Shown here piece by piece: positions 29,023-33,808 of a DNA stretch of 36,743 nucleotides. Source of the stretch: Verrucomicrobiales bacterium (GTDB taxonomy: Bacteria > Verrucomicrobiota > Verrucomicrobiia > Limisphaerales > UBA1096); NCBI GenBank assembly GCA_002686755.1, contig NYYJ01000070.1, forward strand, positions 1 through 36,743, given 5' to 3'. The position numbers and the translations under genes are program-made. The notes beneath the pieces were generated by a model. It made no database searches. It saw nothing but the letters and a program-made list of their open reading frames with translations, and had not been told where the DNA came from. Each line of letters begins with the position of its first letter. Within the stretch, counting starts at the first letter, position 1.

Positions 29023-31053
29023 TCAGACGCCGAGGGCGTTGAGCAGGTAAAAGAAAACCCCGGCGGCGCTGGCGACGATCACGAGTCCTTCCACGACCAG
29101 CAGCGCGACGGGCGGCAGGCCAAGCGCGCCGCCTTGGCCGGTCGGTTTGCCAGCTTGGCCAAGCGTACCGAGCATCAGGCTGCCGGTCATCACGACCAAC
29201 TGCGCGCAGACGAACACCATCAGCCAGGCGAACGCCTTGTCCATGAAGCCGTACGAGTGCAGGCCGATGCCTAGCATGTTTGTCCCGAAGAAAGACCAGG
29301 CGGTGACAGCGTTGCCGAAGATCGCCATGGCGACGAGGCCGCGCTCGCGGATCAGCCCGCCCCATCGCGCGTGCAGGATGGCGGCGTTCCAAATGACGAC
29401 CATCAGAGCGCCGTTCTCTTTCGGGTCCCAGCCCCAGAACCGGCCCCACGACTGGTCTGCCCAGATGCCGCCCAGCACCGTGCCGACAAAGCTGAACAGC
29501 GTCGCAAAACAGACGATACCGTAGATCATCTTGGTGAGCGCTGTGCGGTTGGCCTTGTTGAACGGCACTTTGTTGGACACGAAGTCGCGCACCACAAAGA
29601 CAATCGCGAGGAAGCCGGCGACGAACGTGGCCGAGTAGCCGATGGTGATGATCACCACGTGAGTCGCGAGCCAGAAGTTGGTGTCGAGCACGGCCTGCAG
29701 CATCTCCATCGTGTCGCCGCTAAGCGAAAGCCCTCCGGCGACGAGCAGCGTGACAAAGCCGACCGCGCTGGCGACGACGTTCCCGATGCCGTCCCGGTAA
29801 ATGCGCTCGAGAATCAGCCCGAGAATCACCGCACCCCAGCCGACGAACACTGCGGCGGAGTACAGATTGGTCACCGGCGGACGGCCCTCGAGCCACATGC
29901 GGAAGATCAGCCCGGAGGTGTGGATGACGGCGGCCAGTGCGATCAGATTGTAGGCGGTGCGGTTGGGCCACTTGGCCAAGGTCAGCCAGCCACCGCAAGC
30001 CAGCAGGAAGGCCAGCACATAGAGGATTTCGCACTTGTAAAACGGGTCGAAGTTATTGAATGCAAACTCTTTGCCCGTTTTGCCAAGCGCGGTGCTGTGT
30101 CCGTTTTTTCCGAGATAATCGCGGTAACCGGCAAGGGCATTGTTGAATTCCTCGGGCTTGTCGTTTTTGTAGGCGGTGAGCATCCCGGCGTACGCCTTGG
30201 CGGCGGGATCGATTTCAATTTTCCAGTCGTTGTCCGCTGCCGCAGCGTTGGTGATGCTGTGAAACAGGCTCGAGTTGAGCGAGCGCCAACTGGCATTGCT
30301 GTCGTTCCCCGGCGGGATGACCCGGGGCCAAAACATCACGCCGCCCCGGTCCCCTTCATGTGCCCCGGGTTCGAGCAGCTTGTCGATCAATCCGGTGAAC
30401 TGGTGGTGATCTTCCTCGTCATGCTCGGCGCCGGTTTCGTGTGCCCGGGCGGCAGCCATTCCGATCGGGAAAATCTCCTCGAACTGTTTCAACTCGCCGG
30501 CAAAATCGACCGAGCGCTGCGGCCGGAAGCTCTTGGCCAAGCGTTGGTAAATCAGCAGTGAGTCGGCGACCGCCTTCAGCGATTTTTCGTACGGCGTGCG
30601 CAGCGAGACCTCCTTGGAGTGGATGCGCCCGCTCTCCCGGGCCAGGCGCTCGAAGTTGTTGCCGGCAGTGATGTCGTTCACCGAGAAATGTTTCTCCTCC
30701 TTGGCCAAGCGGAGGTGATCCTTGATTTCCTCGTTATCGATGCGGAACACCGGCCGGGTGCGGGCCACGTCCGGCTTGGCCGCCAGTTCCAGCAGCCATT
30801 CGATCGCCGGGATGGTTTCCACCTCGCCGCCGTCCCGGGCGTAGCGGCCGGTGGACTTGTGGCGGATGACCTGCATGGCGTTCCGGGCGGTCGCATCGAT
30901 CGGCTGGATGCGCCCGTCGAGCAGCACCGGCAGGCGTCCGAAGCCGTACAGATCCGGCTGACCGTCGGCGACGCTGGGCATGCGCACCAGCCCCATCAAG
31001 GCCCACAAGGCCATGACCGTGACTGCAACGACCGGGACGGACAGCTTTTTCAT
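29023..31053 (-). CDS. ccsA: Cytochrome c maturation protein CcsA/ResC (System II)
   Basis: 676 residues. One N-terminal helix is followed by a long periplasmic region (about 30-340) and then eight or so membrane helices. The heme-handling WWD signature reads W-G-R-F-W-G-W-D-P-K-E-N-G-A, with histidines in A-V-I-H-T-S-G and G-I-G-L-H-S-Y-G. With ResB it forms the System II heme exporter and cytochrome c synthase, which attaches heme to CxxCH proteins outside the membrane. Its start overlaps the resB stop by 4 bp. Palindrome cores at 29155, 29972, 30533 and 30701 encode T-L-G-Q-A-G-K, T-L-A-K-W, R-L-A-K-S and R-L-A-K-E; two of them are in the periplasmic region. Confidence 0.9.
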   Translation of the reverse strand: MKKLSVPVVAVTVMALWALMGLVRMPSVADGQPDLYGFGRLPVLLDGRIQPIDATARNAMQVIRHKSTGRYARDGGEVETIPAIEWLLELAAKPDVARTRPVFRIDNEEIKDHLRLAKEEKHFSVNDITAGNNFERLARESGRIHSKEVSLRTPYEKSLKAVADSLLIYQRLAKSFRPQRSVDFAGELKQFEEIFPIGMAAARAHETGAEHDEEDHHQFTGLIDKLLEPGAHEGDRGGVMFWPRVIPPGNDSNASWRSLNSSLFHSITNAAAADNDWKIEIDPAAKAYAGMLTAYKNDKPEEFNNALAGYRDYLGKNGHSTALGKTGKEFAFNNFDPFYKCEILYVLAFLLACGGWLTLAKWPNRTAYNLIALAAVIHTSGLIFRMWLEGRPPVTNLYSAAVFVGWGAVILGLILERIYRDGIGNVVASAVGFVTLLVAGGLSLSGDTMEMLQAVLDTNFWLATHVVIITIGYSATFVAGFLAIVFVVRDFVSNKVPFNKANRTALTKMIYGIVCFATLFSFVGTVLGGIWADQSWGRFWGWDPKENGALMVVIWNAAILHARWGGLIRERGLVAMAIFGNAVTAWSFFGTNMLGIGLHSYGFMDKAFAWLMVFVCAQLVVMTGSLMLGTLGQAGKPTGQGGALGLPPVALLVVEGLVIVASAAGVFFYLLNALGV

Positions 31054-32669
31054 GCGGCGGCCTTTCGTCTTTTGTTGAACGTGAACAGGTGGGTCAGGAA
31101 CTGGATCAGCATGCCCAGCCCCACCATCGCACAGGAGATGTACGGTGTCATCCAGCCGGGATTACGCACGACCTGCAGGACGGTGGCCTTGGGGTTCTTG
31201 GGATCGAAGCTGGCCTGAAAATAGGTTTTGCCGTGGGTGCGCAGCGGGTGGTTCATCCAGATGTTCACCTCGCGTTCGGCCCCGGTGGCGCGTTCGCGCA
31301 CAATGACAAGGCTGGAGAAGTTCCGTGCCTTTTCGGTGCCCTGAAACTTGTCGTGTTTGAAGTCGACCAACTCGATGTCGTACGGCGTGTAATGGCGCGT
31401 GAAGCGCAGCGCCAACTCATACTCCTTACCGTCGTGCTCGAATGTCTGCTCCGGGATCGGTGTCGTCAGCGCGCCGAACATCGCGGCGACCATCCACGTG
31501 CCGAGGTCGGCGCCGTCGGTCGATTTCAGCCGCAGGTAGGCGGCGGGGAAGTTGACTTCCTCGAGCGACGTGACTGAGTCCTTCGGGGTGGAGGCGAGCT
31601 CGCGGCCCTTGCCTTCCGTGGCCCGGCTTTTCTCCGCTTGGCCAAGCGAGACGAGGTCGGAGTTGGTGTAAAAGTCGAGCACGGTCACCTCGAACGGCAG
31701 GGTGCCCATCCGGTGGGTGGTGCCTTTGCCAAGCGCCCCGGCCGGGATGGCGGCGACGGTGTCGGTGTCCGACCGGCTTTTGTCGATGATCACCAGTTCG
31801 CAGTCGCTGCTGCTGATGGAGTAGCCTTTGGCCTGCCCCTCCACGAGCCGGAGGTTGCTTTCGACCTGGTACTTGTCGGTGACCAATTGGCCCAGCAGCA
31901 TGAGGATCAGCCCGGCGTGAGTCAGGAAGATGCCGATTTTTTTCCGCGAAAAGGTGAACCGCTGGAAGTGGGCGGCGAGCAGATTGACCAGCAGCACGAT
32001 GCCGACGAGGTAGCCGCCGACGAATGGAAACTGGAACATCACCGGATAACGGGCCGAGCGGACGTACTCCCGGAAGGCTTCCTTTTCCCGCATCACCGCT
32101 TCGGTGTCGCCGGTGATCTTGTAAAACCACATCTCCGGCAGCGAGCGGTAGGAGAGGGAATGGATGACACCCAGCGTCGTCGTCGGCCGGCCGTCGCGCG
32201 TACCGCTCAACTCGACGTAGGTTCCGCGGTTGCCGTCCACCTCGAACGGCTGCGTTGCCTCCGCGAGTTGGTCTTGGCCAATCCCCCCCAGGCCAAGCTG
32301 GCCGCGCCACCGGTTGACGTTGTCCAGCAGCCCGGTGCCCTTGGCCAGCTTGGTGACCGAGATGACCGCCTTGTCGTCGCCGTGTTGTGCCTCGAAATTG
32401 ATGAGGCTGAACTGCGCCGGCTCCGTCTCGTTCCAGTGCGCTGGCGGTTGCCACTCGGAGCCGCCGAGCCGAATCTGCGCCCAGCCCGCGCCGCCGATGC
32501 TTTCCGGCACGAGGAAGTAGCTGCGGAAATATTTTTTCTGTGCGTCGTACAGTCCCTGATCGACCTGCGCCAGCGTGCCGACAAACACCAGCACCATCGC
32601 CGCAATCAGGCAGACCACAGTCAGGCGCAGCGAGCACCAAAACTGAACGAATAGCTTGAGGAACGGCAT
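31050..32669 (-). CDS. resB: Cytochrome c maturation protein ResB with an inserted domain
   Basis: 539 residues from the ATG at 32669, which overlaps the upstream stop by one base. The ResB plan is present. TM1 (about 8-34) ends in G-T-L-A-Q-V-D-Q-G-L-Y. TM2 (about 215-235) is G-G-Y-L-V-G-I-V-L-L-V-N-L-L-A-A-H, and TM3 is about 245-263. A large periplasmic domain follows, then TM4 and a basic tail. Between TM1 and TM2 lies an extra domain of about 140 residues (about 67-205), with N-V-N-R-W-R-G-Q-L-G-L and W-F-Y-K-I-T-G. It is homologous to the two domains of the preceding gene and is not usual in ResB. A perfect palindrome (31635-31648) encodes S-L-G-Q-A-E-K. Works with CcsA. Confidence 0.87.
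   Translation of the reverse strand: MPFLKLFVQFWCSLRLTVVCLIAAMVLVFVGTLAQVDQGLYDAQKKYFRSYFLVPESIGGAGWAQIRLGGSEWQPPAHWNETEPAQFSLINFEAQHGDDKAVISVTKLAKGTGLLDNVNRWRGQLGLGGIGQDQLAEATQPFEVDGNRGTYVELSGTRDGRPTTTLGVIHSLSYRSLPEMWFYKITGDTEAVMREKEAFREYVRSARYPVMFQFPFVGGYLVGIVLLVNLLAAHFQRFTFSRKKIGIFLTHAGLILMLLGQLVTDKYQVESNLRLVEGQAKGYSISSSDCELVIIDKSRSDTDTVAAIPAGALGKGTTHRMGTLPFEVTVLDFYTNSDLVSLGQAEKSRATEGKGRELASTPKDSVTSLEEVNFPAAYLRLKSTDGADLGTWMVAAMFGALTTPIPEQTFEHDGKEYELALRFTRHYTPYDIELVDFKHDKFQGTEKARNFSSLVIVRERATGAEREVNIWMNHPLRTHGKTYFQASFDPKNPKATVLQVVRNPGWMTPYISCAMVGLGMLIQFLTHLFTFNKRRKAAA
31635..31648. repeat. Perfect 14-bp palindrome CGCTTGGCCAAGCG
   Basis: In the periplasmic domain of ResB, read L-G-Q-A. Confidence 0.97.
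32298..32334. repeat. 37-nt direct repeat, copy in resB
   Basis: Matches 32909-32945 in the upstream gene at 36 of 37 positions (mismatch at 32322 versus 32933). It encodes the N-V-N-R-W-R-G-Q core of the shared domain. Confidence 0.93.
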
Positions 32670-33808
32670 CACGGCTTGGGAAGCTGGATGGTTTGAATGA
32701 ACTCCATGAATGCGCCTTTCTCGGCGGTGACCACCGCGCTTGGCCCGCTCATTTTGTAAAACCAGGTCTGGCCGTCCGCCGGGTGGAATACGCTCAACGA
32801 GGCGCTGGTCTCGCCGATGGCCTCGACGAGCGTGGCCGGCGTCCCGCTGATGGTCACCGTCGTGGTCGCCTTGGCCAGGCCGGCGGCATCGACCGGCGGA
32901 AGGCCGGACTGGCCGCGCCACCGGTTGACGTTGGCCAGCAGCCCGCCGACATCGCCGGGGAAGGTCATCACCGTGATCTCCGCCTTGCCGTTCCCGGCGG
33001 TGAAGTTGCCCAAGCGCATCGAGGTCGGCGGCTTGGCGGCCCAGCCGTCCGGCTTGGCCCACGTCGGCGCGGCCGCCGCCGGAGGGGGTGCGGGGGGACG
33101 CGCTGCATCGGCCTCGGCCATCAGCCGGTCAAAGTTCACCTCGCTGGCCCCGGGTTGAAACTGCAGCGTGGCGAGAAAATTAGTGAAGGCGCCGTAATGC
33201 GGCTCGATCGCCCCGGCCGGGCCGGACAGCTTGAAGAACCAACCCACTTGGCCAAGCACCAGCGACGCGGTGACGATGCGCGGCGGGGTCTCCTGTCCCG
33301 CGAGCGGTTCGGTGCCGGCGATGTCGTACAACCGCCCGTCGTGTCCGCCGATCTCGATCGGCTTGGCCAAGGTTTGCAGCGTGGCGTCGTCCGCCGGGCC
33401 AAGGCCGACCTGCTTGCGCCACATGTTGACGATCATCGGGTTCTCCGCCAGCCGCGCCGGCAGCGGGATGGCGCTGACCCCGGCGTTGCCCGGCAGCACG
33501 AAGGAGAAAGTCGTAAGGCTTGTTGCGTCCGTGGTGTCGGTCCAGCCGTCCGGCTTGGTGAACCGGATCAGCGAGTCCGGGGCTGGCTTGGCCGGGGAGG
33601 GTGGAAGTGCGGCGGCCGTGGGCGGCGGGACCGGGTTTTCCCTTGGGACATTGTAGGTGCGCACCTCGCCGCTGTTGCCGGAAAAAATCTCGAACAGCAA
33701 CACGGCCAGCAGCATGACGACGATGAATGCGCCGTCCCGTAAATAGTTGGGCTGTGGTTTCTCCACGCGGACAGGCAGAGGGACGCGCCGGGCGGACGAC
33801 TCATTCAC
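32669..33808 (-). CDS. Membrane-anchored protein with two copies of an uncharacterised domain
   Basis: 379 residues from a GTG start (ACGGG just upstream). There is a single N-terminal membrane anchor (about 27-42) and a Pro/Ala-rich stretch. Two related domains follow (about 85-216 and 252-377). Each opens with K-P-D-G-W, has a central W-R-x-Q-x-G-L, then W-F-[FY]-K-[LM]-S-G-P, and closes with G-A-F-x-[EN]-F. The same domain is inserted in ResB, the next gene, whose start overlaps this stop by one base. I do not recognise the family. Position as first gene of the System II operon and the shared domain suggest a periplasmic partner of ResB/CcsA; this is inference. Palindrome cores at 33248 and 33363 are read V-L-G-Q-V and T-L-A-K-P. 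Confidence 0.75.
   Translation of the reverse strand: MNESSARRVPLPVRVEKPQPNYLRDGAFIVVMLLAVLLFEIFSGNSGEVRTYNVPRENPVPPPTAAALPPSPAKPAPDSLIRFTKPDGWTDTTDATSLTTFSFVLPGNAGVSAIPLPARLAENPMIVNMWRKQVGLGPADDATLQTLAKPIEIGGHDGRLYDIAGTEPLAGQETPPRIVTASLVLGQVGWFFKLSGPAGAIEPHYGAFTNFLATLQFQPGASEVNFDRLMAEADAARPPAPPPAAAAPTWAKPDGWAAKPPTSMRLGNFTAGNGKAEITVMTFPGDVGGLLANVNRWRGQSGLPPVDAAGLAKATTTVTISGTPATLVEAIGETSASLSVFHPADGQTWFYKMSGPSAVVTAEKGAFMEFIQTIQLPKP
32909..32945. repeat. 37-nt direct repeat, copy in the gene upstream of resB
   Basis: Partner of 32298-32334. Such identity over codons that could vary silently suggests a recent duplication or gene conversion between the neighbouring genes. Confidence 0.93.

Follow-up and report, generated by a model that had tools for sequence, protein, structure and literature searches.

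System II of cytochrome c assembly, in which ResB helps to attach heme to cytochromes, has few known parts. Among its helpers, ResA/CcsX and CcdA are extracytoplasmic or membrane partners of ResB-CcsA. The ResB encoded in the stretch of DNA analyzed here (36,743 nt in total, referred to as the window) was compared with the CcsB/ResB part of H. hepaticus CcsBA (7s9y/7s9z; PMC10663686) and, within the part of the published description used, resembles it in topology, PF05140 match, transmembrane (TM) His, and periplasmic beta-rich part. The two differ in the loop between TM1 and TM2, which in the window carries a PsbP-like domain of 140 aa; no such domain is mentioned for CcsBA in that part of the description (PMC10663686).

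On the minus strand of positions 29023-33808, three overlapping genes code for a 379-aa protein, ResB, and CcsA. Three homologous domains of ~140 aa were delimited in their products, A and B in the protein upstream of ResB and R in ResB itself. The features are as follows.

32669-33808, minus strand: upstream protein, 379 aa, with a cytoplasmic N-tail, TM anchor, Tyr-x-Val-Pro-Arg/Lys-Glu motif, domain A, linker, and domain B
33689-33745, minus strand: predicted TM anchor, residues 22-40 of the upstream protein, from the AlphaFold2 (AF2) helix and comparison of N-termini, at the position of the lipoprotein signal and Cys in relatives
33152-33568, minus strand: domain A, aa ~79-222 of the upstream protein, PsbP/Mog1-like by alignment and AF2/Foldseek
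32675-33067, minus strand: domain B, aa ~245-379 of the upstream protein, PsbP/Mog1-like, closest kin of R
31050-32669, minus strand: ResB (CcsB), 539 aa from the ATG with the insert included, by PF05140 and AF2/Foldseek to 7s9y
32037-32459, minus strand: domain R, aa ~61-212 of ResB, PsbP/Mog1-like insert between TM1 and TM2
32298-32334, minus strand: stretch of R coding for NVNRWRGQLGL, identical at 36 of 37 nt to 32909-32945 in domain B
32909-32945, minus strand: counterpart of this stretch in domain B, by DNA comparison
29023-31053, minus strand: CcsA (ResC), 676 aa, PF01578 (E 8.9e-25), matching 7s9y

The stop codon of the upstream gene overlaps the resB ATG by 1 nt (TGATG) and the resB stop overlaps the ccsA ATG (ATGA), and these overlaps suggest translational coupling of the three genes. 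Sequence comparison found the catalytic motifs of CcsA intact, with the WWD motif SWGRFWGWDPKE and candidate P-His/TM-His segments, and the conserved His residues of ResB-CcsA themselves are retained. The N-terminal ~260 aa of CcsA (window ~30260-31053) matched neither the Pfam model nor the solved CcsBA sequences, and the match to 7s9y begins at aa 264, although CcsA is not fused to ResB. ResB was recognized by PF05140 with 52.7 bits (cut-off 24.6). In its AF2 model, calculated from 47 sequences, helices span residues 14-38, 219-237, 242-267, and 508-538 and strands lie within 269-502, giving the four-TM topology of CcsBA with a periplasmic beta-rich domain before the last helix.

An earlier sequence-only reading had proposed that one domain occurs three times across ResB and its upstream neighbor. 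Local alignment scores were 148 for A/B, 110 for A/R, and 190 for B/R, the maximum among shuffled sequences being 54-63 (1000 shuffles each); the corresponding blastp E-values were 1.9e-15, 9.2e-8, and 2.3e-20. The motifs WRxQxGL and WF[FY]K are common to the copies, which end in GAFTNF, GAFMEF, and EAFREY. With these values and the single fold described below, the proposal is borne out, and the coordinates and motifs previously given for the three segments hold.

AF2 modeling of the upstream protein with 43 homologues was confident for A and B (pLDDT 92-98 in most blocks, mostly 94-98 in A); R, for which the insert was covered by nine sequences, was modeled less confidently (pLDDT mostly 64-94). 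Rather than different folds, AF2 predicts one for all three segments, with the same order of elements (E-E-H-H-E-E-E-E-H: two strands, two helices, four strands, and a C-terminal helix). With the upstream protein model, Foldseek retrieved CyanoP (2xb3, E 1.1e-5, prob 1.00), spinach PsbP (2vu4), LpqN, DcrB, EagT6, and Tsi3. With the ResB model, the core matched CcsBA 7s9y (E 2.4e-18) and the insert matched 1tu1, EagT6, and CyanoP. For the PsbP-fold matches, TM-scores by target length were ~0.5-0.65, each referring to one domain of a two-domain predicted model. None of the Pfam and NCBIfam models recognizes A, B, or R. The PsbP, DUF1795, and Lpp-LpqN profiles of Pfam gave no match above cut-off in any copy or in the 43 members, the best stray match being Lpp-LpqN at E 0.14 in one member, and a sequence search of solved structures returned no relative of the domain. 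The models thus place the domain in the PsbP/Mog1/DcrB fold, yet outside those sequence families. The domain had been called unnamed, which is right for its sequence family and wrong for its fold, already known. Conserved residues of the domain are W, P, GW, NVNRWRGQ, and WFYK; in the family alignment, Cys is essentially absent and nowhere conserved, and no His or Tyr ligand is common to all members.

A short TM1-TM2 loop is usual, though not defining, for ResB, and the window ResB lacks it: its loop measures 182 aa, and 179-186 aa across the genus (nine complete records including the window), against 33-56 aa in ResB of other verrucomicrobial families. The earlier statement that a typical ResB passes from TM1 to TM2 without such a domain agrees with the ResBs examined outside the genus. 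R was also present in a tenth, cut record of the genus. Of 21 draft genomes covered by a further search of the genus, 16 have ResB, with frames of at least 539 aa except for two (350 and 280 aa) that were probably cut by contig ends. No insert was found in any of the ResBs seen outside the window's genus; a 695-aa frame in one genome of the order-level survey, considered as a second insert lineage, was rejected, its ResB having a short loop. The insert is an addition to the ResB family, the core of which was not lost. R follows the conserved YFRSYF, and this site, the positively charged cytoplasmic ends, and the AF2 helices are consistent with a periplasmic location on the same side as A and B. 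Mean identity among nine genomes was 60% for R, 60% for A, and 78% for the ResB core, so that R evolves faster than the core.

Phylogenetic analysis recovered R as a single clade (support 100), sister to the B domains of the genus and within the B part of the tree, with an SH-aLRT value of 91, not above 95. In a sparser tree, R was placed among the B domains of related Limisphaerales families. Derivation of R from domain A was rejected, as the tree joining R and A failed the AU test (p 0.0035). A His in the strand that precedes WFYK points independently to an origin of R from B in this lineage: it is present in 20/20 B and R copies of the genus and in 0/120 others. Taken together, the trees and this residue argue that R arose once, from the C-terminal domain B of the partner, and they uphold the earlier suggestion that a duplicate from the operon partner was inserted into ResB. 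Contact with heme or substrate is a candidate function of this His, the only lead towards the docking role suggested before.

The identity of 32298-32334 with 32909-32945 at 36 of 37 nt, also reported before, is real. It encodes NVNRWRGQ, the most conserved peptide of the domain family, in GC-rich codons, and therefore does not date the duplication. Of the 12 codons shared within the match, 11 agree, where local codon usage would predict ~5/11; for this peptide, the nine relatives examined show agreement at 4-9 of 10-12. When the entire domain is considered, codons coincide at 23 of 46 shared residues, an ordinary level. Recent duplication or gene conversion as a reading of the match was rejected, since the conserved motif and codon usage explain it; a small local gene conversion may have occurred there. 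The insertion into ResB is shared by the whole genus and is an old event rather than recent copying.

Scanning the GTDB genomes for a profile of the domain gave at least 582 relatives, of which the best 80 were examined. At nearly all of these 80 loci, a domain protein with one or two copies directly precedes ResB, followed by CcsA; exceptions to this order were mostly cuts at contig ends. A phylum-wide sample of 79 Verrucomicrobiota genomes contained the domain in 24, all of which carry ResB (24/24), and in none of the 31 genomes without ResB (Fisher p 4e-7). Domain and ResB are adjacent on one strand in 21 of the 24. The remaining three come from a single family, in which a weaker, lipoprotein-like relative of the domain lies away from ResB (for example at 1734-2330 of locus L106). 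Half of the ResB-bearing genomes in this sample lack the domain, which is therefore not essential to System II as such. In an order-level survey, 55 of 58 genomes had the domain. A Phycisphaerales genome shows the identical order of domain protein, ResB, and CcsA on a 966-kb contig, so the arrangement may extend to Planctomycetota; domain records in Elusimicrobia and Polymorphobacter bins may be contamination.

Some loci deviate in their gene structure. At seven of them, from several Opitutales, ResB and CcsA share one open frame of 1028-1385 aa; these are apparently natural fusions, and the domain lipoprotein still precedes them. At locus L085 (4155-5139), two overlapping frames together encode ResB, owing to a frameshift or an error in sequencing. 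The window's own genome also has a distant lone copy of the domain (L023:1411-1944; 29509-29940 of its contig), a 177-aa protein with a signal peptide that no Pfam model matches. Its gene neighbors a TIM-barrel-like one, and many genomes of the order have similar genes of ~180 aa. A 985-aa frame with a distant copy in another genome was set aside as a chance extension of a ~180-aa gene.

Outside the window's genus, a strict pattern of a lipobox Cys with a YxVPKE-like motif a few residues after it matched 63 of 71 relatives, and 5 of the remaining 8 had Cys and motif when inspected by eye. Judged from these N-termini, the upstream protein outside the genus is a lipoprotein with one or two domain copies. 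In the window protein and its genus the lipobox Cys is gone and the YxVPKE-like motif is kept; instead, these proteins share a conserved N-tail, VEKPQPNYxRDG, and a hydrophobic helix (33689-33745 in the window), predicted to be a TM anchor that replaces the lipid anchor. This exchange and the ResB insert occur in the same genus.

Conserved gene order and natural fusion are classical signs of protein contact. The conserved operon order and the natural fusion in the window's genus accordingly lead us to infer that the lipoprotein touches ResB-CcsA. We consider it likely, at roughly two chances in three, that the lipoprotein belongs to the System II synthase as an extrinsic subunit or acts as its assembly factor, and that part of this lipoprotein has been built into ResB; it is probably a new part of the heme-attachment machine. 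The domain would be an extracytoplasmic protein-interaction module of PsbP/Mog1 fold, and the one- or two-domain lipoprotein would work with ResB-CcsA much as CyanoP and PsbP, seated on the lumenal side, do with photosystem II. In the window's genus, domain B would have been duplicated into the periplasmic TM1-TM2 loop, making the third copy a covalent part of the synthase, and the partner would have swapped its lipid anchor for a TM helix. The most probable placement has the domains leaning on CcsA and the small periplasmic part of ResB, beside the heme/CXXCH site, where they would stabilize the complex or wall the apocytochrome entrance. A PsbP-like partner could provide walls or a lid for the small, unfused ResB-CcsA complex. 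Any effect on heme attachment, substrate presentation, or heme contact is speculative. The fuller version, a Verrucomicrobiota-wide System II subunit in which a PsbP-fold lipoprotein walls the ResB-CcsA active site and is partly fused into ResB in one marine lineage, is more tentative, with chances slightly below even.

The domain could instead handle substrate, binding unfolded apocytochrome c around CXXCH and presenting it to the ResB-CcsA active site, with the extra copy in ResB as a second hand at the entrance. It is extracytoplasmic, encoded beside the synthase gene, and was added to ResB on the periplasmic side, and among its fold relatives are the EagT6/SciW chaperones, which bind other proteins at their transmembrane segments (PMC7773334). 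However, the conserved W, P, GW, NVNRWRGQ, and WFYK look as structural as substrate-binding, and there is no conserved Cys for thiol chemistry; we regard substrate handling as unlikely. An extra heme station, in line with the earlier suggestion and with the His of the genus' B and R copies as a heme ligand or close to heme, would suit a complex that handles heme and a residue invariant in 20/20 of these copies. This His is nevertheless absent from 120 other copies, and ResB-CcsA retain their own conserved His residues. Lacking Cys and any His or Tyr ligand common to all members, the family is poorly suited to redox or heme-ligand chemistry, and direct heme ligation by it was rejected on these grounds. 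To our knowledge, PsbP-fold proteins are not known as heme binders, and a heme station appears very improbable.

Alternatively, the gene order may be a relic of history and the insert a decoration that ResB tolerates and that does nothing for cytochrome c assembly, as ResB of other families works without it and half of the sampled ResB-bearing genomes lack the domain. Such a decoration would have to be reconciled with an insert present in every full-length ResB of the genus at 60% identity and with the association of domain and ResB (24/24 versus 0/31), which makes it rather improbable. The window genome is a fragmented draft of 197 contigs, which might point to an artefact of assembly or gene calling, or to chance similarity; yet the same architecture occurs in ten records including the window and in further genomes, the blastp E-values are as given above, and the insert lies in one continuous frame without stops. 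Its replication in other genomes refutes this reading, which retains practically no probability.

As a family tied to ResB-CcsA across Verrucomicrobiota and lacking a Pfam or NCBIfam entry, the lipoprotein is a candidate new part of System II. The natural fusion in one genus, which belongs to the marine Verrucomicrobia, supports contact with ResB and locates it at the periplasmic TM1-TM2 edge; if the partner is indeed a subunit partly fused into ResB, the fusion fixes where it binds. A search of the openly accessible literature on Verrucomicrobia with ResB or CcsA/CcsB found no paper linking the two.

Among known helpers, ResA/CcsX has a thioredoxin fold with CXXC, whereas the window domain is essentially without Cys. 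DcrB, LpqN/MTC28, and the DUF1795 proteins (EagT6, SciW) share its fold by Foldseek but give no sequence-family match; DcrB and LpqN are envelope lipoproteins, and we know of no link of DcrB, LpqN/MTC28, or DUF1795 proteins to cytochrome c. CyanoP/PsbP (2xb3, 2vu4; PMC4220643) has the same fold and is extrinsic to a membrane complex on its extracytoplasmic face, as proposed for the window domain. Binding of CyanoP to an intermediate of photosystem II assembly (PMC4220643) would by analogy be a precedent for a role as assembly factor. The family tied to ResB-CcsA suggests in turn that redox membrane complexes beyond photosynthesis also use the PsbP fold as an extrinsic helper. Identity to CyanoP/PsbP is, however, ~13%, and the PsbP profile is not matched. 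Unlike CyanoP/PsbP, the window domains are in tandem, have resB-ccsA as partner genes, and include one copy inside a membrane protein. What is new compared with these systems is the pairing of a System II synthase and a PsbP-fold partner that has contributed one of its domains to ResB.
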